From positions 62,001-126,000 of the forward strand of contig JAAFIQ010000003.1 in NCBI GenBank assembly GCA_013298715.1: DNA of 64,000 nucleotides, given 5' to 3'. This document shows positions 18,504 through 49,107 of the stretch, piece by piece. The number at the start of each line of letters is the position of its first letter. Position 1 is the stretch's first letter. The DNA is from Bacteroidota bacterium (GTDB lineage: Bacteria > Bacteroidota > Bacteroidia > B-17B0 > Aurantibacillaceae). Below the pieces are notes generated by a model. It made no database searches and was not told where the DNA came from. It saw nothing but the letters and a program-made list of their open reading frames with translations. Position numbers and translations under genes: made by a program.

Positions 18504-19181
18504 CTAAAACTCAAACTTGTAACCAACTCCTTTTACAGTTTTAAAATATTCTTCGCCAATCTTTTCGCGAAGTTTTCTAATATGTACATCAATGGTTCTG
18601 TCGCCAACTATAACTTCATCACCCCAAACTTGTTCTAAAATATACTCACGCGTAAATACTTTACCAGGCTTGCTGCTTAATAAAACGAATAAATTAAACT
18701 CTTTTTTAGGCAAGGCAATTTCGGTTGTTCCTTTGGTAACTAAATGTTTTTCTTTGTCAATTTGAATGTCTCCAAAAATTAATGCGTTTGATGTTTCGGT
18801 GGCGGTACCTTCAAGTCTTCTAAGCAGAGCTTTTATCCTGCTCATAAAAACCCTTGGTTTAATAGGTTTTGTAATGTAATCATCGGCGCCAACTTCAAAA
18901 CCTGCAATTTGGGTATAATCTTCGCTTCGCGCCGTTAAAAATGCTATTAAAACGCCCTCTAATCCCTTCACATCTCTTAATTCGCGACAGGTTTCAATAC
19001 CATCCATATCTGGCATCATTACATCTAGAACAATTAAGTGGGGTTTTTCTTTTTTGGCAATTGCAATTGCATCTTTGCCATTTGTTGAAGTAATAATTTC
19101 GTACCCTTCGCGCTTTAAATTGTAGCTTAAAAACTCAAGAATATCTTGTTCATCATCTACTAATAGTATTTTGTACGTCAT
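18504..19181 (-). CDS. PhoB/OmpR-type response regulator
   Basis: Two-domain regulator of 225 residues. I chose the ATG at 19179-19181 (MTYKILLVDDEQD), which has CAAGGAAAT just upstream, over a TTG nine codons earlier. The receiver has D9, D10, the phospho-acceptor D53 in VLDVMMPDMDG, T83 and K105 (ITKPIKP), all intact. The C-terminal winged helix (about 125-225) carries LPKKEFNLFVLL and RTIDVHIRKLREKIG, the PhoB-type DNA-recognition region. No histidine kinase is adjacent. The divergent neighbour is a TonB-dependent receptor 171 bases away, a likely target. It is clearly paralogous to the regulator at 25585-26268. Phosphate control is suggested by family and by Pho-box-like repeats nearby, not proven. 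Confidence 0.92.
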   Translation of the reverse strand: MTYKILLVDDEQDILEFLSYNLKREGYEIITSTNGKDAIAIAKKEKPHLIVLDVMMPDMDGIETCRELRDVKGLEGVLIAFLTARSEDYTQIAGFEVGADDYITKPIKPRVFMSRIKALLRRLEGTATETSNALIFGDIQIDKEKHLVTKGTTEIALPKKEFNLFVLLSSKPGKVFTREYILEQVWGDEVIVGDRTIDVHIRKLREKIGEEYFKTVKGVGYKFEF

Positions 19182-19352
19182 ATTTCCTTGGCATTTTTTC
19201 GATTTCAAAGCTATTCATTTAAAAGGAATTAGTATGTTAAGTAATTATTAATTTAACATTTGTAAAATCTTATTTAATTAAAGTTTTAATAACATCAAAT
19301 TTAAGTTTGGTTTAATTGGGAGCCTTTAATTTGCAGGCTTAAATTCAGAATT

Positions 19353-22328
19353 ATGTTGAAAAAAATATTCCTATTTGTTATTGTAAATATAAGCATTTTC
19401 GCTAGTGCACAAAATGGTAAAGTTGTTGGTACAATTGTTGATTCTAAAACGGGTGAAACTTTGCCCGGAGCTACTGCTTTGATAGAAGGTACAAACAAAG
19501 TAGGTTCGGCTGATTTTGATGGGAAATTTTCTATTAATAACCTTGCTCCTGGCAAGTATGTTTTAGTGGTAAGTTATATTTCTTACAACACAAAAAAAAT
19601 TACCGATGTAATTGTTAAAGCAAACGATGTAACTGATGTAAATATCCCATTAGACCCAAGTGGTTCTCAGGATTTAACAGAGGTTGAAGTTGTTGTAACA
19701 CTTAATAAAGAAAATAATACAGCTTTGGTGTTGCAGCAAAAAAACAACGCCAGTGTAAGTGATGGGATAAGTGCCGAGACTATTAAGAGAACACCAGATA
19801 AAAACACCAGCGACGTTTTGAAACGTGTTAGTGGAGCAAGCATACAAGACAATAAATTTGCGGTTGTTAGAGGGTTAAATGACAGGTATAATGCTGCTTA
19901 TTTGAATGGTTCGCCACTTCCAAGCACTGAAAGTGATAGAAAAGCCTTTTCGTTTGATATTTTCCCAAGTAATATGTTGGATAATTTAGTAATTACCAAA
20001 ACGGCTAGACCAGATTTACCTGGTGAGTTTGCTGGAGGTATAATTGAAATCAACACAAAAAACATACCAGAAAAAAATTTCATTTCAGTAACTGCCGGCG
20101 GTGCTTACAATACCATTACTACAGGTAAAAACCAAATTTATTACAAAGGAGGAAAAACAGATTGGATAGGTTTGGATGATGGAACACGCGCCCTTTCAAA
20201 TAAGATGCCCAGCTTCGAAGAGTTTCCAGTGAATATTAATGAGCAGGCAAAGCTTGCTAAAGAAATTCCAACTGGTGATTGGTCGAAGTATAATAAAAAA
20301 TTTAGCCCTAATTCTAACTTTCAATTCTCAGGAGGATTTAATCTTAAACGTAAAGAGAAAGACTTTTTTGGCGTTTTAGCCTCCTTAACTTACAATAATA
20401 CAAACAGTTTTTATACAACCAACCGTTTTACTTATCAGTCAGGTACCCCAAACGATCCGAACGACCCATTATTGGCGGATAAAATTTATAATGATGCAAC
20501 ATATCAAACACAAAAATTAGTTGGAGCACTGCTTAATGCTGCAATAAAAATTAATGATAATAATAATATTAGTTCTAAAAACTTATATAGCATTTCAAGT
20601 GATGATAGAACGATAACAAGGGGAGGAACTACTACACCCAACGAAGCTAATAAAAATGTAATCAAAGCGAGTGCTTTCTGGTTTACACAAAACCTTATAA
20701 ATACTTCTCAGTTAATAGGCGATCATTATATACCTAAAGCAAAAATCAAAATAAATTGGAACGCTGGTTATTCTAGAGTTCAAAGGGAAATCCCTAACCT
20801 ACGAAGACATTACTATCAAAAGTTAGAGAGAGTGGAGCCAATTCCAAATCCAGATCCTTCTGAGCCACCAACGATTAATCCTAACGATACAGTTTTTCAA
20901 GCACAATTTGGTTCTCCAAAATCAAATAGTAACGATTACGCAGGAGTTAGTCTATTTTCTAAGTTAAATGAGCGTATTTATTCTGGTAAGACTGATATTT
21001 CAAGAATTTTTAAATTGAATTCTGATTTTACATTAGAAGGTAAAGTTGGTGGATTATACCAAATCAGAAATAGAACATTTGAATTTAGACAATTTATTTA
21101 TAGCCCTTATAATATTTCTGGAGGCACAACATCATTTAGCACTGGATTAGGTTATTTACCTGAAGACCAAATCTTCACCCAACAAAATATGGGTTTACTT
21201 CAGCAAGGTACTAATGGAAACAATAATATAGGTGGTTTTTTAATTGGAGAATCTACATATCCAGATAGTCCTTACTCTGCGGAATCTAAGTTAATTGCAG
21301 GTTATGGAATGTTTGATGTTAGATATAAAACTTTTTTAAGGTTAATAAGTGGTTTAAGATACGAAAGCTATTATCAAAAAATATCATACAATGATTTACT
21401 TTATATAATCAATAAGAAGGTAAACGTTGTAGATACTGTAGTTAATGATTTATTGCCTTCAGTAAACTTAATTTATTCGCCTACAGAAAAAATTAATATT
21501 AGAGGATCTTATTCTAGAACATTAAACAGACCTGAGTTCAGAGAATTGGCACCATTCCTGTTCTTTGATTTTAATACTGGTTTCAGTTTAAATGGAGACC
21601 CGAATTTACAGCGCGCAACTATAGATAACTTTGATTTAAGATTTGAGTGGTTCCCTAATGGTGGGCAATTAGTTTCGGTATCTGGTTTTTATAAGCATTT
21701 TATTAACCCAATAGAGTTATTTAAAGGACAAAATACTTATCAAGTTGTTTATGGCAATACACCATCGGCATTTGCGCAAGGCGTTGAATTTGAGTACAGA
21801 ATTAACTTAGGTAATTATTATAAAAACGATTCTAGTGTTTTAGGTAAAGTTTTAAACAACACAACAATATTTTCTAATCTAGCGTTGATTCAATCTAAGG
21901 TTGAGGCTCAAGCCCCTAAAAATCCATTACTAGCTGGTTCGGTTTCAACCTACCAACGACCGCTTCAAGGTCAATCTCCTTACTTATTTAATGCAGGTAT
22001 AAGTTATGTGGATAACACTTATAATTTTAGCTTAAGTGCAATGATAAATAGAGTTGGACCAAGAATTTATATTGTTGGGAATAATATTTATCAAGAAATT
22101 TGGGAGTACTCAAGAACAGTAATGGATTTACAAGCAACAAAATCGTTCATAAATAATAGACTAGAATTGAGATTTAATGTGAAAGATTTGTTCGCAAATA
22201 ATCAACCACTTCAATTTTACCAAAATTTTGATAACAAAGCATTCAAGAAAAATTCTGGAAAAAACACATTGATGTGGGATACAAGATTAGGTGTTACTTT
22301 TTCAGCTGCAATATCCTACAAGTTTTAA
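19353..22328 (+). CDS. TonB-dependent receptor with carboxypeptidase-regulatory-like domain
   Basis: Outer-membrane receptor of 991 residues. After a signal peptide (1-20, ending FASAQ) comes a CarboxypepD_reg-like beta-sandwich (about 22-105, GKVVGTIVDSKTGETLPGAT and FDGKFSINNLAPGKY). The plug domain spans about 125-235 (IKRTPDKNTSDVLKRVSGAS, VRGLNDRYNAAYLNG), then a long beta-barrel ends in the usual aromatic residue (AAISYKF). It imports a substrate with energy from TonB-ExbBD. No SusD lipoprotein follows; its partner on the same strand is a T9SS-exported protein 106 bases downstream, and a PhoB-type regulator is divergent upstream. The substrate is unknown; phosphate-containing compounds would be a reasonable first guess from context. 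Confidence 0.93.
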   Translation: MLKKIFLFVIVNISIFASAQNGKVVGTIVDSKTGETLPGATALIEGTNKVGSADFDGKFSINNLAPGKYVLVVSYISYNTKKITDVIVKANDVTDVNIPLDPSGSQDLTEVEVVVTLNKENNTALVLQQKNNASVSDGISAETIKRTPDKNTSDVLKRVSGASIQDNKFAVVRGLNDRYNAAYLNGSPLPSTESDRKAFSFDIFPSNMLDNLVITKTARPDLPGEFAGGIIEINTKNIPEKNFISVTAGGAYNTITTGKNQIYYKGGKTDWIGLDDGTRALSNKMPSFEEFPVNINEQAKLAKEIPTGDWSKYNKKFSPNSNFQFSGGFNLKRKEKDFFGVLASLTYNNTNSFYTTNRFTYQSGTPNDPNDPLLADKIYNDATYQTQKLVGALLNAAIKINDNNNISSKNLYSISSDDRTITRGGTTTPNEANKNVIKASAFWFTQNLINTSQLIGDHYIPKAKIKINWNAGYSRVQREIPNLRRHYYQKLERVEPIPNPDPSEPPTINPNDTVFQAQFGSPKSNSNDYAGVSLFSKLNERIYSGKTDISRIFKLNSDFTLEGKVGGLYQIRNRTFEFRQFIYSPYNISGGTTSFSTGLGYLPEDQIFTQQNMGLLQQGTNGNNNIGGFLIGESTYPDSPYSAESKLIAGYGMFDVRYKTFLRLISGLRYESYYQKISYNDLLYIINKKVNVVDTVVNDLLPSVNLIYSPTEKINIRGSYSRTLNRPEFRELAPFLFFDFNTGFSLNGDPNLQRATIDNFDLRFEWFPNGGQLVSVSGFYKHFINPIELFKGQNTYQVVYGNTPSAFAQGVEFEYRINLGNYYKNDSSVLGKVLNNTTIFSNLALIQSKVEAQAPKNPLLAGSVSTYQRPLQGQSPYLFNAGISYVDNTYNFSLSAMINRVGPRIYIVGNNIYQEIWEYSRTVMDLQATKSFINNRLELRFNVKDLFANNQPLQFYQNFDNKAFKKNSGKNTLMWDTRLGVTFSAAISYKF

Positions 22329-22330
22329 CA

Positions 22331-22359
22331 CTTAACATTAAAGTAACATAAATTTAAGT
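22331..22359 (+). promoter_or_regulatory. Pho-box-like tandem 7-bp repeats with 11-bp period
   Basis: Three seven-base units CTTAACA (22331-22337), AGTAACA (22342-22348) and TTTAAGT (22353-22359) are spaced exactly 11 bases apart. This is the geometry of PhoB half-sites (seven-base repeats separated by four AT-rich bases). They lie upstream of the T9SS cargo gene at 22435. The region is AT-rich, so chance similarity is possible. Confidence 0.4.
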
Positions 22360-22434
22360 CAAGTGTAATGTTATGTTAACTATATAAGAACGTAAAAGGA
22401 TGAATTTTGTAACTCAATTTAAAAACAAATAATT

Positions 22435-24114
22435 ATGAAAAAAATTTTATTTTCAGTGTTGGCTTTGGTTGGTTTAACTACCGCTTCAGCACAACCATTC
22501 TTTAATCAAACTACTTTTCGAGGTGCTTTTGCTCCAGCCCCAACTCCTATGTGGACTCAAGGTTGGACAGAGTGGGACCCGCAAAATGCAAATTATGGCG
22601 TGCCTACGGCAACTGTAACAGGAACAATTAGTGCAAACACTACCTGGTCATCTGGTACTACAGTTTTGTTACAAGGCCCAGTTTATGTTACAAATAATTC
22701 AACCTTAACTATAGCTCCTGGTGTCGTTATCAGATGTTCTAAGGCAGTTGCTGGCTCAGCTTTAATTATCACAAGAGGTTCAGTTATTAATGCTGCTGGT
22801 ACTTCTACTGCACCAATCGTGTTTACTTCCGATCAAGCAGCTGGCGCAAGAGCTGTAGGCGATTGGGGTGGTGTTATTGTTTTGGGTAACGCAGCTCTTA
22901 ATTTCACTACTGGCGTTAACAATATCGAAGGCTTACCGGTTTCACCAAATTCTCAATATGGTGGAGGTTCTACACCAAATAATAATGACAATTCTGGTAC
23001 TTTACGTTACGTACGTATTGAATATGGTGGATATGTTTACGGACAAAATCAAGAGATCAACGGATTAACATTGGGCGCTGTTGGAAAAGGAACTACATTG
23101 GAATATATTCAAACTTCATTTACAAATGATGATGCTTTTGAATGGTTTGGTGGTAATGTAAATGCTAAATGGTTAGTGAGCTATAGAAACTTAGATGATG
23201 ATTTTGATACTGATAATGGTTATAGCGGAAATGTACAATATGGTTTAATTGTACGCGACCCTAATTTAGCTGATAATCCATCTGTATCTACTTCAGAAGG
23301 CTTTGAATCTGATAATGATGCTAACGGAACAACTGCCTCACCTTTAACTTCTGGTGTATTTAGCAACATAACAATGATTGGCCCTTACCGTGGAACCACA
23401 ACTAACGCGATTGCAGCCGGTTACCGTCGTGCAGTTCGTTTACGTCGTAACACGAATTTAAAAGTATATAATTCAATTTTTATGGATACACAACGTGGTG
23501 TTCATATTGATGGTTCACTTTGTGAAACAAGCGCTGGAAACGGTAATTTAAAATTTAAAAACAACGTAATTGCTGGTATGGCTCAAAGAGCTGTTGAACA
23601 AAACACGAACAACACTTTTGGTACAAACGCAGGCGCAACTACAGCATCTTGGTTTACAGCTAATTCAAACGATTCAATTCATGGTTCAATGCCATCTTTC
23701 TCTGTTATTTTAATTACTCCTTATAATTACACTTCTCCAGATTACAGACCAACAGGAACATCGATAGCTTTATCTAGTGCTAGTTTTACTGATGCGGCAA
23801 TAGCTCCATTGACAAATACCTCTACTGTAGGATTTACAGAAGTTAAAAAGGAATTAGGTTATATTGCTTTGTACCCAAATCCTGCCTCTGATGTAACGTC
23901 TTTAATTATCACTTCTAATTTTGATACAAAAGCAGATATTAACGTTTATGACATAACTGGAAAAAATGTTCTAACTATTTCAAAAAATGAAGAGTTATTC
24001 CAAGGTATTAATGAGTTGTCAATAAATACTTCTAAATTAACTAACGGAGTTTACTTTGTAACATTAAATACGGTTGCAGGTAAAGAAACTGTTAAGTTAA
24101 TAGTGAATAAATAA
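22435..24114 (+). CDS. T9SS type A cargo protein with beta-helix-like fold
   Basis: Secreted protein of 559 residues. Signal peptide 1-19 (ending TTASA). The body contains repeated strand-turn units typical of a right-handed parallel beta-helix: LTIAPGVVIRCSKA, IVFTSDQ, WGGVIVLGNAALN, LRYVRIEYGGY, LEYIQTSFTNDDAFEWFGG, VFSNITMIGP and LKVYNSIFMD. The last 80 residues are a type A T9SS sorting domain (IALYPNPASDVTSL, INVYDITGKNV, TNGVYFVTLNTVAGKETVKLIV). It follows the TonB-dependent receptor in the same direction with a Pho-box-like repeat between them. A plausible role is surface capture or processing of the substrate imported by the receptor, in place of a SusD; this is inference. A strong terminator follows. 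Confidence 0.88.
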   Translation: MKKILFSVLALVGLTTASAQPFFNQTTFRGAFAPAPTPMWTQGWTEWDPQNANYGVPTATVTGTISANTTWSSGTTVLLQGPVYVTNNSTLTIAPGVVIRCSKAVAGSALIITRGSVINAAGTSTAPIVFTSDQAAGARAVGDWGGVIVLGNAALNFTTGVNNIEGLPVSPNSQYGGGSTPNNNDNSGTLRYVRIEYGGYVYGQNQEINGLTLGAVGKGTTLEYIQTSFTNDDAFEWFGGNVNAKWLVSYRNLDDDFDTDNGYSGNVQYGLIVRDPNLADNPSVSTSEGFESDNDANGTTASPLTSGVFSNITMIGPYRGTTTNAIAAGYRRAVRLRRNTNLKVYNSIFMDTQRGVHIDGSLCETSAGNGNLKFKNNVIAGMAQRAVEQNTNNTFGTNAGATTASWFTANSNDSIHGSMPSFSVILITPYNYTSPDYRPTGTSIALSSASFTDAAIAPLTNTSTVGFTEVKKELGYIALYPNPASDVTSLIITSNFDTKADINVYDITGKNVLTISKNEELFQGINELSINTSKLTNGVYFVTLNTVAGKETVKLIVNK

Positions 24115-24115
24115 A

Positions 24116-24133
24116 CTTAACATTGATTTAATG
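24116..24133 (+). promoter_or_regulatory. Weak second Pho-box-like direct repeat
   Basis: CTTAACA (24116-24122) and TTTAATG (24127-24133) repeat with an 11-base period just before the terminator hairpin and upstream of the small gene at 24166. Only the TTAA cores match, so this is a weak site. Confidence 0.22.
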
Positions 24134-24134
24134 T

Positions 24135-24165
24135 AAAAGTCAGCTAATTTTAGCTGACTTTTTTT
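24135..24165 (+). terminator. Rho-independent terminator directly abutting the next start codon
   Basis: AAAAGTCAGCTA pairs with TAGCTGACTTTT around a short TA-rich loop, followed by a T-run ending at 24165. The ATG of the next gene begins at 24166, immediately after the last T. It ends the receptor/cargo operon and may double as a 5' leader structure controlling the next gene. Confidence 0.88.
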
Positions 24166-24543
24166 ATGACACCACTTCAAGTTAGGAACCGAATTTCAAA
24201 AATAGACCAAGCAATAGAGCTAAAATTTTTTCACGAGGCATTTATAAGAATTTACTTTTTAAATGTTACTTTATTAAAAAATATTTTAACAAAGCACTAT
24301 CTGCTATCCCCTGAAAATTTGAAAGCAAAACAATTAGCAGATCAACTAATAAATCAACAAAATGCTATTGGGGCAAAAAAAATAATCGCCAATAAATTTT
24401 TAAAAAACATTAAATCGCATTTTACTAATGCAGAAATTTATTTTAAAAAATTAAAACAAAGCGAACAAAAAAATATTACTGCTTTAATTAAAGAGGCGCA
24501 GTATTGCTTAAATTTATTAAATATTGCAATAAATAAAAGGTAA
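24166..24543 (+). CDS. Small all-helical protein of unknown function
   Basis: A 125-residue protein without signal peptide or membrane segment. It is predicted from its residue pattern to be mostly amphipathic helices, rich in Lys and Asn (LKFFHEAFIRIYFLNVTLLK, LIKEAQYCLNLLNIAINK), with four-helix-bundle or HEPN-like spacing. I recognise no family. The ATG is the only methionine in the protein, so the start at the base of the terminator T-run is well fixed if the gene is real. Codon usage and lysine/asparagine content resemble neighbouring genes. It precedes the PP2C phosphatase by 103 bases. Confidence 0.6.
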   Translation: MTPLQVRNRISKIDQAIELKFFHEAFIRIYFLNVTLLKNILTKHYLLSPENLKAKQLADQLINQQNAIGAKKIIANKFLKNIKSHFTNAEIYFKKLKQSEQKNITALIKEAQYCLNLLNIAINKR

Positions 24544-24646
24544 CTAAAAGGCTTTAATCTTTAAATAGGTATAGTTTATCTAATTTAATAATCAATAAAT
24601 ATTAGCTTAAAGTACAGTATTATATCTCGAAGTAAATTTGCTTTGA

Positions 24647-25489
24647 ATGACGAATTTATTGATAGAAGAGATCCCTTACGAACAATTAAAACACGATTTT
24701 TTAAACCTAAAAGTTGAGAATAAAAACTTATTAGATGGGCTTTATTATGCTGCTTATGTTCAACAAGGGTTAATGCCACAACCGCGGCATTTTGATAAAT
24801 TGGGTTATAACTATTTTGTAGTGTATGAACCATTACAAATAATTGGGGGCGATTTTTTTTGGGTAGCTAAAAAAGGTGATTGGGATTTGTTTGCGGTTGG
24901 GGATTGCACTGGGCATGGCGTTAGCGGTGCCATGTTATCTACTCTAGCTATTGGCTTCTTAAATTATTTGGTTTACTCAAAGGAATTTGAAGAGGTTGGA
25001 ACAATACTTAATAACCTAGATGCTAAATGGATCGAAACATTCAATTCGGAGTTTGGTAATGAAGATACTATAAACAATGATTGGCTTACAATTTCAATTG
25101 TTGCTTATAATAAAAAAACTAAAGAATTACAGTTTACAGGTGCACAAAGTGCAATTGAATTAAAAGTTGATAACCAATTAATCGTATTAAAAGGCGATAA
25201 ATTCCCTATTGGCGGCTGGCAGATAGAAAAGAATAGGGTGTTTAAAACCCACTTATTAAAACTAGATACTAGGAGCATTGTTTATCTTTATACTGATGGA
25301 ATAAAAGATCAATTTGGTGGAGATAAGAGTAAACGGTTTGGAAGTAAGCGCTTTGTTGAATTGCTAACTTCGGTTTCTAATAAAAAAATAGTTAATCAAA
25401 AAGAACTAATTAGTGAACAATTAAAAGTTTGGAAAGGTGAGAATGAGCAAACAGACGATTTATGTTTACTAGCTTTTGAGTTAAGTTAA
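24647..25489 (+). CDS. SpoIIE/PP2C-family serine phosphatase
   Basis: Soluble 280-residue phosphatase. A short helix with LLDGLYYAAYVQQGLMPQP (28-46) is the linker seen in Bacteroidota SpoIIE proteins. The PP2C core has all metal-binding acidic residues: D69 in GGDFFW, D86 in VGDCTGHG, D217 in YTDGIKD and D270/D271 in TDDLCLLAF. It removes phosphate from Ser/Thr residues of a regulatory protein. It lacks the usual sensor, TPR or membrane domain. The TPR protein at 368-1804, which has the linker but no phosphatase, and the SiaC-family protein at 12436-12795, a known type of PP2C substrate, are possible functional partners in this window (inference). It is followed by a regulator 95 bases downstream. 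Confidence 0.9.
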   Translation: MTNLLIEEIPYEQLKHDFLNLKVENKNLLDGLYYAAYVQQGLMPQPRHFDKLGYNYFVVYEPLQIIGGDFFWVAKKGDWDLFAVGDCTGHGVSGAMLSTLAIGFLNYLVYSKEFEEVGTILNNLDAKWIETFNSEFGNEDTINNDWLTISIVAYNKKTKELQFTGAQSAIELKVDNQLIVLKGDKFPIGGWQIEKNRVFKTHLLKLDTRSIVYLYTDGIKDQFGGDKSKRFGSKRFVELLTSVSNKKIVNQKELISEQLKVWKGENEQTDDLCLLAFELS

Positions 25490-25519
25490 TCTGTTAGCAT
25501 TTAATAGTTAATTTATTAA

Positions 25520-25537
25520 CGTTAATGTAAAGTTAAG
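25520..25537 (-). promoter_or_regulatory. Pho-box-like direct repeat upstream of the second regulator
   Basis: Read on the minus strand, CTTAACT (25537-25531) and ATTAACG (25526-25520) share five of seven bases and are 11 bases apart. The site is 48 bases upstream of the regulator start at 25585. Orientation is opposite to that gene, and the region is AT-rich, so confidence is low. Confidence 0.3.
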
Positions 25538-25584
25538 TTGCTCTAAACTTAATAAGCTTAGCACAACTTTACATACCCTAAGCT

Positions 25585-26268
25585 ATGAGCTCTCAAAAGT
25601 TTAATATTGTATTTTACGATAATGCTGCACATTACTTGTTAAAAACAATTGACATCCTAAAGGCTGAAGATTATTCTGTAGAATTATTATCCGTTGAAGA
25701 AGAATTTTTATCCCATTTACATGAGTCAGTTTCAAATGTTGTTCTTATTAATCTTGACGTGCAACCAAACGACGGAATAACACTGATAAATCATATAAAA
25801 CAAGAAATGGTTGACATAAATCCCTTTATTATTTTATATACAAAAAAGCAAGATGAGTTTGCGCATGAATTAGCCTATAATTCTGGTGCCGACGCAGTCA
25901 TTAATTTTTACGATAAACCAATTTTAATGAAATGGTTTATTAAAAATCTTTTACGAAGAAAGATAAGTTCACCATTAAAAACTAAAAATAACCTGGAGAT
26001 TGATAATGAAGAATATTTAATTGTTTTTAAAAACAATAAAATCCAGCTTCCTAAAAAAGAATTTTTAATTTTTAAATTACTAATTGATGCTCCCGAAAAA
26101 TTTCACACAAAAAAAGAAATTGCACAACTTATTTGGAACGATGAAACCATCTCTACCAAACGAAACATAGACGTGCATATTTATAACATTAGAAAACTTA
26201 TAAAACGTGATGTGATTCAATCTCAAAAAAATAAAGGGTATAGAATTAATAAAAAATTACTTCACTAG
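25585..26268 (+). CDS. OmpR/PhoB-like regulator with degenerate receiver domain
   Basis: A 227-residue protein with a receiver-like domain (1-120) and a PhoB-type winged helix (130-225; LPKKEFLIFKLLID and RNIDVHIYNIRKLIK). It is paralogous to the regulator at 18504-19181 over the DNA-binding region. The receiver is altered: in ungapped alignment to D53 of the paralogue the phospho-acceptor is N56 (VVLINLDVQPNDG), with the nearest Asp two residues later, and the first acidic pair is Y11-D12. T86 and K111 (YDKP) remain. It is therefore likely phosphorylation-independent, or controlled by binding. It follows the PP2C gene and may be co-transcribed. Its 3' end overlaps the convergent AlgJ-like gene by 12 bases. 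Confidence 0.85.
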   Translation: MSSQKFNIVFYDNAAHYLLKTIDILKAEDYSVELLSVEEEFLSHLHESVSNVVLINLDVQPNDGITLINHIKQEMVDINPFIILYTKKQDEFAHELAYNSGADAVINFYDKPILMKWFIKNLLRRKISSPLKTKNNLEIDNEEYLIVFKNNKIQLPKKEFLIFKLLIDAPEKFHTKKEIAQLIWNDETISTKRNIDVHIYNIRKLIKRDVIQSQKNKGYRINKKLLH

Positions 26269-48650: not shown

Positions 48651-49022
48651 TTACAACTGTTTTTTAATTTCTGGATTATTGTTTTTATTCTCGTCATCAC
48701 AAGTAGCCACAAAAGATTTAAATTCAAGCTCTTTTTTTAATGGTACTAATTGAGTTTGTTTTCTAATGGAATCAAATAGTTCAACTTCATTAAAGGAATT
48801 GCTATCTTCAATTTTTATCAAAAAGCAATTCATGTTATTACAGAATAAAATTATCTTCGCTGATAAATCCGATGAAATTATTTGTTTAACTCTAAGCAGT
48901 TGTTCGGAATTAAGTTCTTTAAAACCAATGGCAATCAAATTAGCTTGGTTGGCGGTTTTAACTTGTGATAACAATTTAAAGTTACCAAAAAGTAGTATTA
49001 TTGATAGTAAAAATAGTTTCAT
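48651..49022 (-). CDS. Small exported protein upstream of the T9SS cargo gene
   Basis: A 123-residue protein with a signal peptide (about 1-20, ending FKLLSQ). The mature domain of about 95 residues alternates helices and strands (VKQIISSDLSAKIILFCNNM, CFLIKIEDSNSFNEVELF) and ends in a polar tail. I know no family. Its stop is two bases before the start of the 976-residue cargo protein, so the two are translated from one mRNA and might work together. The TATCTTTA at about 49041-49048 (minus strand) is a possible -7 box. Confidence 0.65.
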   Translation of the reverse strand: MKLFLLSIILLFGNFKLLSQVKTANQANLIAIGFKELNSEQLLRVKQIISSDLSAKIILFCNNMNCFLIKIEDSNSFNEVELFDSIRKQTQLVPLKKELEFKSFVATCDDENKNNNPEIKKQL

Positions 49023-49107
49023 GTTATATTAATGTTAAGTAAAGATAAAAATCCAGTCTTAAAAAGTATAATTCTTATTCCTAATTTCGACCAAAATATT
49101 TATTTAA

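Follow-up and report, generated by a model that had tools for sequence, protein, structure and literature searches.

Three described systems are among those closest to the locus that is the subject of this study. In Flavobacterium johnsoniae, the phoBR-operon phosphate utilization system PUSIV covers Fjoh_0541-0546, and in the phosphate (Pi) depletion transcriptome its receptor, lipoprotein and PhoB have values of 8.02, 9.91 and 3.06, respectively (PMC8115612). The elpS gene of Caulobacter crescentus is associated with the TonB-dependent receptor CC0171 and with type II secretion genes (PMC2996285). Riemerella anatipestifer PhoP, a flavobacterial regulator, is reported to be raised in phosphate starvation; TTTAACA are the most conserved letters in its DNA affinity purification sequencing (DAP-seq), and it binds a TonB-dependent receptor promoter in electrophoretic mobility shift assays (PMC9603813). 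We analyzed a 64-kb stretch (the window) of the 4.01-Mb, 46-contig genome of a Bacteroidota bacterium from the family Aurantibacillaceae (GCA_013298715.1, contig JAAFIQ010000003.1). It carries a six-gene block in which a PhoB-type regulator gene, phoB1, is divergent from a receptor gene that is followed by the gene of a presumably exported protein, here called the cargo. We read this block, with a probability of about 0.8, as a PhoB-controlled surface phosphorus-scavenging locus, and we infer its substrate and its phosphate induction in this organism. The features discussed are as follows.

18504-19181, minus strand: phoB1, PhoB-type response regulator (ATG at 19181), phosphorylation residues intact
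19278-19305, plus strand: three-unit 11-bp direct-repeat site in the gap between phoB1 and the receptor gene (p = 0.002; one mismatch to the receptor-promoter pattern)
19353-22328, plus strand: TonB-dependent receptor with carboxypeptidase-regulatory-like, plug and barrel domains
22332-22380, plus strand: five-unit 11-bp direct-repeat array, [GT]TAA every 11 bp, 5' of the cargo gene
22435-24114, plus strand: cargo, with a type IX secretion system (T9SS) tail and a predicted right-handed parallel beta-helix, ElpS-like
24135-24165, plus strand: intrinsic-terminator-like hairpin with a T run (-17.2 kcal/mol), abutting the next start codon
24166-24543, plus strand: small helical protein of HEPN-like predicted fold, without the R-x4-6-H pattern
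24647-25489, plus strand: SpoIIE-type PP2C phosphatase; motif letters GGDF, DCTGHG, YTDG and DDLCLL present
25585-26268, plus strand: pseudo-receiver PhoB paralogue, with DN as its acidic pair, N at the acceptor position and F in place of the conserved Lys

The block and its phosphate-gene neighbours in relatives

All of the genes lie where the original prediction had placed them, and in the order that it gave. A Pfam scan of the six block proteins did not find the SusD family, again as predicted, and membership of the SusCD class was rejected on this ground. The phoB1 protein has Response_reg and Trans_reg_C domains and an intact receiver active site (D9, D10, D53, T83 and K105, numbered from the ATG). 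Among the seven OmpR-type regulators of the genome it is the only one whose best NCBIfam model is PhoB (TIGR02154, 219.9 bits with a curated cut-off of 296.2); the PhoB of a Flavobacterium locus, L113, which adjoins phoR, scores 213.4 on the PhoB model and is likewise under the cut-off. The best NCBIfam model of the receptor is TIGR01782, under its cut-off, and the C-terminal domain of the cargo is of the T9SS type (Por_Secre_tail, 53.8 bits).

Relatives were collected by a search with the cargo, which matched in 61 of 61 genomes of the family, many of them through the T9SS tail alone. The 40 fetched neighbourhoods of the longer matches (shorter or partial matches were left out) make up, with the window, a set of 41 loci, some of which are cut by contig ends. 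A further set, the named loci, comprises the best 80 of at least 583 relatives, some of which are genomes also among the fetched neighbourhoods. The receptor is present in 37 of the 41 loci, the upstream PhoB in 31, the downstream regulator in 33 and the PP2C phosphatase in 20, and the small protein occurs in 15, with a similar-looking protein (c5) in 15 others. The divergent PhoB/receptor order is conserved in the family, and phosphate genes are found around the pair in some genera. The upstream PhoB proteins are 70-81% identical to phoB1, and 72 of the best 80 named loci have a receptor match.

The gene order in Flavobacterium L113 is phoB-phoR-receptor-cargo-porin-pstS-pstS-pstC-pstA-pstB-phoU. 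PhoU, PstB, PstC and the tested PstS of this locus are over the NCBIfam cut-offs, and its porin is over the Pfam cut-off for Porin_O_P, a family that is also matched in the porin-like genes of L116, L118 and L047 and is without a match in that of L060. In the sister genus g8, PHO4/PitA lies near the pseudo-receiver gene in four loci (L047, L053, L056 and L060), and in L060 the genes that come after PHO4 are another of outer-membrane type, pstS and one for a pstC-like permease. Genus g6 has a PstS gene inside the block in L050 and a similar-looking gene in L069, and among the best 80 named loci, L171 has a PitA gene within the flank, next to a PhoU_div gene. When 20 loci were fetched from the genus of F. 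soyangense, seven showed phoR-phoB in divergent orientation to a receptor and a cargo homologue; six of these seven homologues carry a lipobox by pattern. Because the pair adjoins phoBR/pst/phoU, PitA or PstS genes in some genera and matches the product order of PUSIV, the phosphorus link is well supported.

Glycosyltransferase and metallophosphoesterase-type genes adjoin the block in L050 and L069 (g6) and in L165. These neighbours recall the low-phosphate lipid-remodelling pair (PMC8115612) and possibly serve lipid remodelling under phosphate stress.

The pair could also be an ordinary polysaccharide-uptake system, in which the beta-helix protein would be a glycan lyase or binder, the regulator would answer some other signal and the nearness of pst genes would be incidental. 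The beta-helix fold is common to pectate lyases, polygalacturonases, alginate lyases and tailspikes. Further, one flank of the block is a glycosyltransferase gene beside what is presumably an NDP-sugar (nucleoside diphosphate sugar) epimerase-like gene, a polysaccharide-type cluster that ends just before phoB1; the other flank is the gene of an AlgX-domain protein, beside a gene that we take to be MBOAT-like. Most of the best 80 named loci have neither pst nor PitA within the flank. We nevertheless consider polysaccharide uptake quite improbable, since in several genera the pair lies next to phoBR-pstSSCAB-phoU, PitA or PstS genes, its product order equals that published for PUSIV and no SusD is seen among the six block proteins.

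Direct repeats with an 11-bp period

The cargo gene is preceded by a row of five [GT]TAA units at a period of 11 bp (22332-22380). Repeats with this period had been proposed between the receptor and cargo genes; they are real, and their extent is five units where three had been counted. No run of five at period 11 occurred in 200 dinucleotide-shuffled copies of the window. The window itself has three period-11 runs of at least three units (lengths 5, 3 and 3), while the shuffled copies average 1.42 such runs and 0.04 runs of at least four units. Runs of exactly three units are also present in the window at period 9 (four) and period 12 (five). Only the run of five is remarkable, and the three-unit runs are ordinary. 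The exact pattern KTAAC-n6-KTAAC-n6-KTAA has a single match in the genome, which is this array.

Matching to a single-site consensus proved to be weak evidence, since TTAACA-n5-GTAACA, with two mismatches allowed, matched the window 18 times with 19.5 expected; the run-length test was used in its place. Two weaker matches listed in the original prediction, at 24116-24133 and 25520-25537, proved to be two-unit pairs at chance level (p = 0.453 for the region 24115-24165 and p = 0.142 for 25490-25584). Of the phosphorus system proposed there, the phosphorus link and PhoB control are well supported by the gene-order comparison, and the two weak boxes are noise. Elsewhere in the window, a two-unit TTAACA repeat with one mismatch lies on the minus strand at 49022-49038.

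A second site, missed by the original prediction, is found in the gap between phoB1 and the receptor gene (19278-19305). Its middle unit is ATAACA, hence its absence from the list of [GT]TAA runs. The site is nearly invariant in relatives of the genus and scores 27.3 bits (p = 0.002) with a three-unit matrix built from ten distinct sites of relatives, the window being left out. About 20 bp downstream is a TAATTTG element, which resembles what we take to be the consensus of the Bacteroidota -7 box. The seed of the receptor-promoter pattern has 19 fixed positions. A longer pattern at up to three mismatches gave 14 matches genome-wide with 11 in controls, which is uninformative. A two-mismatch receptor-promoter pattern also occurs elsewhere in the genome in L088 (1501-1528), opposite in direction to the surrounding genes.

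The repeats were also counted in 988 upstream regions, of which 871 remained after dropping shared 40-mers, with the starts of the longest open reading frames (ORFs) taken as gene starts. Period-11 runs of at least three units are present in 18 of 89 receptor-upstream regions, 26 of 98 cargo-upstream regions and 6 of 548 background regions (family and named loci, deduplicated). For the remaining periods between 8 and 14, counts in the receptor and cargo groups range from 0 to 2 runs. In the background regions, too, runs are most numerous at period 11 (6, versus 1 to 3 at other periods), perhaps via unlabelled Pho genes. Before the cargo gene, spacings of 11, 22 and 33 between [GT]TAA pairs occur 148, 103 and 98 times, versus a mean of 24; before the receptor gene, spacings of 11 and 22 occur 147 and 62 times, versus 31.

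Based on the matrix, receptor promoters of loci outside the matrix set have p <= 0.023 in 14 of 23 cases, although in at least two of these 14 (L073 and L077) the best match overlies a T-rich stretch, unlike the three-unit site. The promoters of the porin-like gene near PitA in the four g8 loci have p values of 0.002-0.012. The matrix performs weakly on most of the other cargo promoters that were scored, as it does on most pst-region promoters of Flavobacterium; the pst-region and porin promoters of L113, L116, L118 and L131 have p = 0.05 or higher.

It should be noted that the repeats might serve not PhoB but a different OmpR-type regulator, such as the pseudo-receiver protein. The pseudo-receiver protein is encoded beside the cargo gene and keeps a recognition helix close to that of phoB1 (R..ID.H...IR), and in genus g2 a stand-alone DNA-binding domain is encoded directly before the cargo gene. 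Against this stand Flavobacterium loci that have a canonical PhoB and in which no pseudo-receiver is labelled. Their receptor promoters carry the repeats in L254, L260 and L267 (p = 0.005, 0.016 and 0.012), with p values of 0.093 to 0.765 in L263, L271, L272 and L273, and three-unit runs lie 5' of the porin-labelled gene in 5 of 5 loci of the same type, four of them near-identical. A regulator other than PhoB is therefore improbable, and we regard the array before the cargo gene and the site before the receptor gene as a testable candidate Pho box for Bacteroidota.

Several observations weigh against a PhoB-controlled phosphorus locus. The PhoB and PhoR models score under their equivalog cut-offs, and pst genes are within the flank in only L113, L116, L118 and L131 among the best 80 named loci. 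Across the genome, matches with no more than one mismatch show no excess (41, versus 62 for reversed-pattern controls). A motif like that of the block had been expected at phosphate genes of the same genome; here the matrix scan is ambiguous, with p = 0.020 at the PitA promoter, before any correction for multiple regions, and no significant site at the pstS promoter (p = 0.335). According to the excerpts on the described systems, the adjoining PhoR (0.76) and OprP (-1.3) of F. johnsoniae are not induced (PMC8115612), the Caulobacter receptor CC0171 is constitutive and deletion of elpS left phosphatase activity unchanged (PMC2996285).

The cargo, the downstream genes and a possible mechanism

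The cargo model (predicted local distance difference test score, pLDDT, 85.7) is a right-handed parallel beta-helix over approximately residues 53-450, with a best VIA Z of 22.5 (root-mean-square deviation, rmsd, 3.1; 276 aligned). Foldseek gave one marginal match, and matches in the PDB sequence search are confined to the C-terminal part of the profile; the fold statements for the cargo and for the small protein thus rest mainly on the VIA second look. PHROGs had no match for either protein. Ten acidic residues (D232, D233, E236, D254, D255, D258, D260, D280, E291 and D293) are invariant among 29 aligned proteins, and this invariance suggests a putative metal site. The first 45 residues hold no cysteine, i.e., the window cargo is without a lipobox. 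Tandem double cargo matches were seen in many cargo genes (L116, L128, L136, L138 and others), and of 72 frames labelled as cargo among the best 80 named loci, 24 are longer than 1,000 amino acids.

Homologues of the pair extend beyond the Bacteroidota. Plasmid-borne cargo homologues in Sphingomonas parapaucimobilis and Indioceanicola profundi are followed by a TonB-dependent receptor and type II secretion genes. Identity between the window and Sphingomonas proteins is 38% over 277 residues for the cargo and 28% over 862 residues for the receptor; among the Flavobacterium loci, the receptor of L254 is only 29% identical to that of L113. A cargo homologue is followed by a receptor in Pseudoalteromonas, and no receptor is annotated in the stretch examined around the Marinobacter homologue. 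The receptor-cargo pair also occurs in L110 (GC content 41%), recorded as Glaciecola amylolytica, where the cargo aligns over the whole query including the T9SS part; this record may be misnamed, since its taxonomy is Gammaproteobacteria.

Rather than bind or degrade a substrate, the cargo might help to activate secreted phosphatases, an accessory role that has been proposed for ElpS in Caulobacter. Overexpression of ElpS raised extracellular phosphatase activity, and refolded or immunoprecipitated ElpS had none (excerpts of PMC2996285); moreover, the cargo homologues in the two Alphaproteobacteria have an ElpS-like gene order. We find an activator role doubtful: Pfam found no secreted phosphatase among the six block genes, and the likeness of cargo to ElpS runs via the Sphingomonas homologue with its elpS gene order, not via the sequence of ElpS.

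Downstream of the cargo gene, a hairpin of -15 kcal/mol or lower precedes the next gene in 34 of 37 loci, with a T run flagged in 27 of 37. In the remaining three, which are outside the energy count, an ORF start lying upstream cut the stretch and the hairpin is visible in the letters. That the hairpin ends at the start codon of the small gene suggests read-through control. The small protein has no Pfam match and a confident model (pLDDT 91.2). VIA rows 1-21 (Z 11.3-8.1) are mostly HEPN or HEPN-linked, with the next row at 7.3, and the match to 2hsb has Z 11.2, rmsd 2.5 and 115 aligned; Foldseek gave no E below 0.001. The protein may be HEPN-like as modelled, at scores under the caution level for helical bundles, which may match by arrangement alone. 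The R-x4-6-H ribonuclease pattern is present in 0 of 15 small proteins and in 2 of 15 c5 proteins.

The degenerate receiver that had been predicted for the second regulator is borne out, as its phosphorylation residues are lost. None of 33 downstream regulators keeps the full phosphorylation site and all 33 have lost the second acidic residue; the acceptor position is occupied by E (13 proteins), N (12), D (6), R (1) or H (1). In the regulator tree, a branch with support 98/94 sets them off as a group, which neighbours the stand-alone DNA-binding domains encoded in genus g2 (98/99) and is separate from the upstream PhoB proteins, but several branches are long and deep placement is unsure. These domains of about 98 amino acids, encoded between receptor and cargo in L051, L052 and L055, occur there instead of a full regulator. 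The PP2C phosphatase, the HEPN-like protein and the pseudo-receiver, which the original prediction listed and left unexplained, recur in the family.

Other Pho signalling genes are sparse or unlinked. The window genome has no PhoU match and no PstB over the cut-off (best 154.8 versus 343.2), and its PstS-like gene, followed by a PitA-like gene, is like the latter under the NCBIfam cut-offs. Its PhoR homologue is at G000:C1:420153-421172, unlinked to the block, and is 53% identical to the PhoR beside phoB in L104. In its own surroundings (L224:9127-10188), the unlinked PhoR homologue is convergent to a gene whose start presumably reads like that of DNA polymerase I. Counting the window genome, PhoU occurs in 9 of 61 genomes of the family and in 1 of 18 at the genus level. 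Loss of Pst genes is not unique to this genome, because plant-associated Bacteroidetes without PstSABC have been reported (Lidbury et al., excerpts of PMC8115612). Among the 41 loci, a locus PP2C and a genomic PhoU are never found together (0 of 20 versus 5 of 21; Fisher test on a hand tally, not corrected for kinship, P = 0.048), which is only a hint that the two are exclusive.

These features allow a scheme of how the locus could work. Under phosphate limitation, the unlinked PhoR would phosphorylate phoB1, which would bind the 11-bp TTAAC-type direct repeats before the receptor and cargo genes and raise the expression of both. The cargo, by virtue of its tail domain, would be exported by the type IX system and would act at the surface, binding or processing a polymer or ester that contains phosphorus, and the product would be imported through the TonB-dependent receptor. 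The terminator-like hairpin after the cargo gene would limit transcription into the HEPN-like, PP2C and pseudo-receiver genes, so their proteins would derive from the share of cargo transcription that reads through it and could tune the same promoters, with the pseudo-receiver PhoB possibly binding the same boxes without phosphorylation. One step further, the Pho response of the family may be rewired, the HEPN-like protein, PP2C and pseudo-receiver together forming a branch that acts through the same 11-bp boxes without phosphorylation and takes the place of Pst/PhoU signalling where PhoU is mostly absent. We put this forward tentatively and think it unlikely as it stands. With a pseudo-receiver PhoB, a HEPN-like protein and a PP2C phosphatase at the locus and so few PhoU genes in the family, Pho signalling without PhoU becomes directly testable.

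Comparison with described systems

The Escherichia coli Pho box consists of CTGTCAT direct repeats spaced by 11 bp, and E. coli PhoB has the helix DRTxDVHIR. The window shares the repeat spacing and an OmpR-type regulator with such a recognition helix, but its letters are TTAACA/GTAACA rather than CTGTCAT and it has up to five units. With SusCD systems it shares a TonB-dependent receptor that has a carboxypeptidase-regulatory-like N-terminal domain; the partner in the window is a T9SS beta-helix protein, not SusD.

Closer in letters is Riemerella PhoP, a Pho-type regulator with a TTTAACA core at a TonB-dependent receptor promoter, although excerpts of its report give it 583 in-vitro peaks, far beyond phosphate genes (PMC9603813). 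It was the only related Bacteroidota motif found in the one open-access library searched, where we found no description of the HEPN-like/PP2C/pseudo-receiver triad or of an 11-bp Pho box in Bacteroidota. Other pseudo-receiver regulators likewise have a receiver fold without phosphorylation residues (PMC12632262), whereas those described here are PhoB paralogues that form one clade and belong to one locus.

ElpS resembles the cargo as a secreted protein beside a TonB-dependent receptor, with elpS-like gene order around the Sphingomonas and Indioceanicola cargo homologues. ElpS is a lipoprotein whose release depends on type II secretion, and the excerpts do not mention an adjoining PhoB gene (PMC2996285); the flanking genes scanned in the window are not type II secretion genes, while the receptor is adjacent. 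The comparison suggests that low-phosphate Flavobacterium surface proteins and the Caulobacter ElpS type are one receptor-beta-helix pair across phyla, with T9SS serving one and type II secretion the other.

PUSIV also corresponds to the window. As far as the excerpts show, both have PhoB beside a TonB-dependent receptor and then a pectin-lyase-fold surface protein (product order of Fjoh_0543-0546), and in the seven Flavobacterium loci with PUSIV-like product order the pair is divergent from phoB as in the window, with the receptor repeat site in three of the seven. The two differ in that the window cargo has a T9SS tail and the PUSIV surface protein a lipobox, in that PhoR, OprP and a family-28-type glycosyltransferase are not adjacent in the window and in the receptor, which carries pf14905 in PUSIV and PF00593 in the window. 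The window further adds the HEPN-like protein, the PP2C phosphatase and the pseudo-receiver PhoB paralogue. We conclude that the locus is most likely a known kind of receptor/beta-helix phosphate system with an unusual second regulator set.

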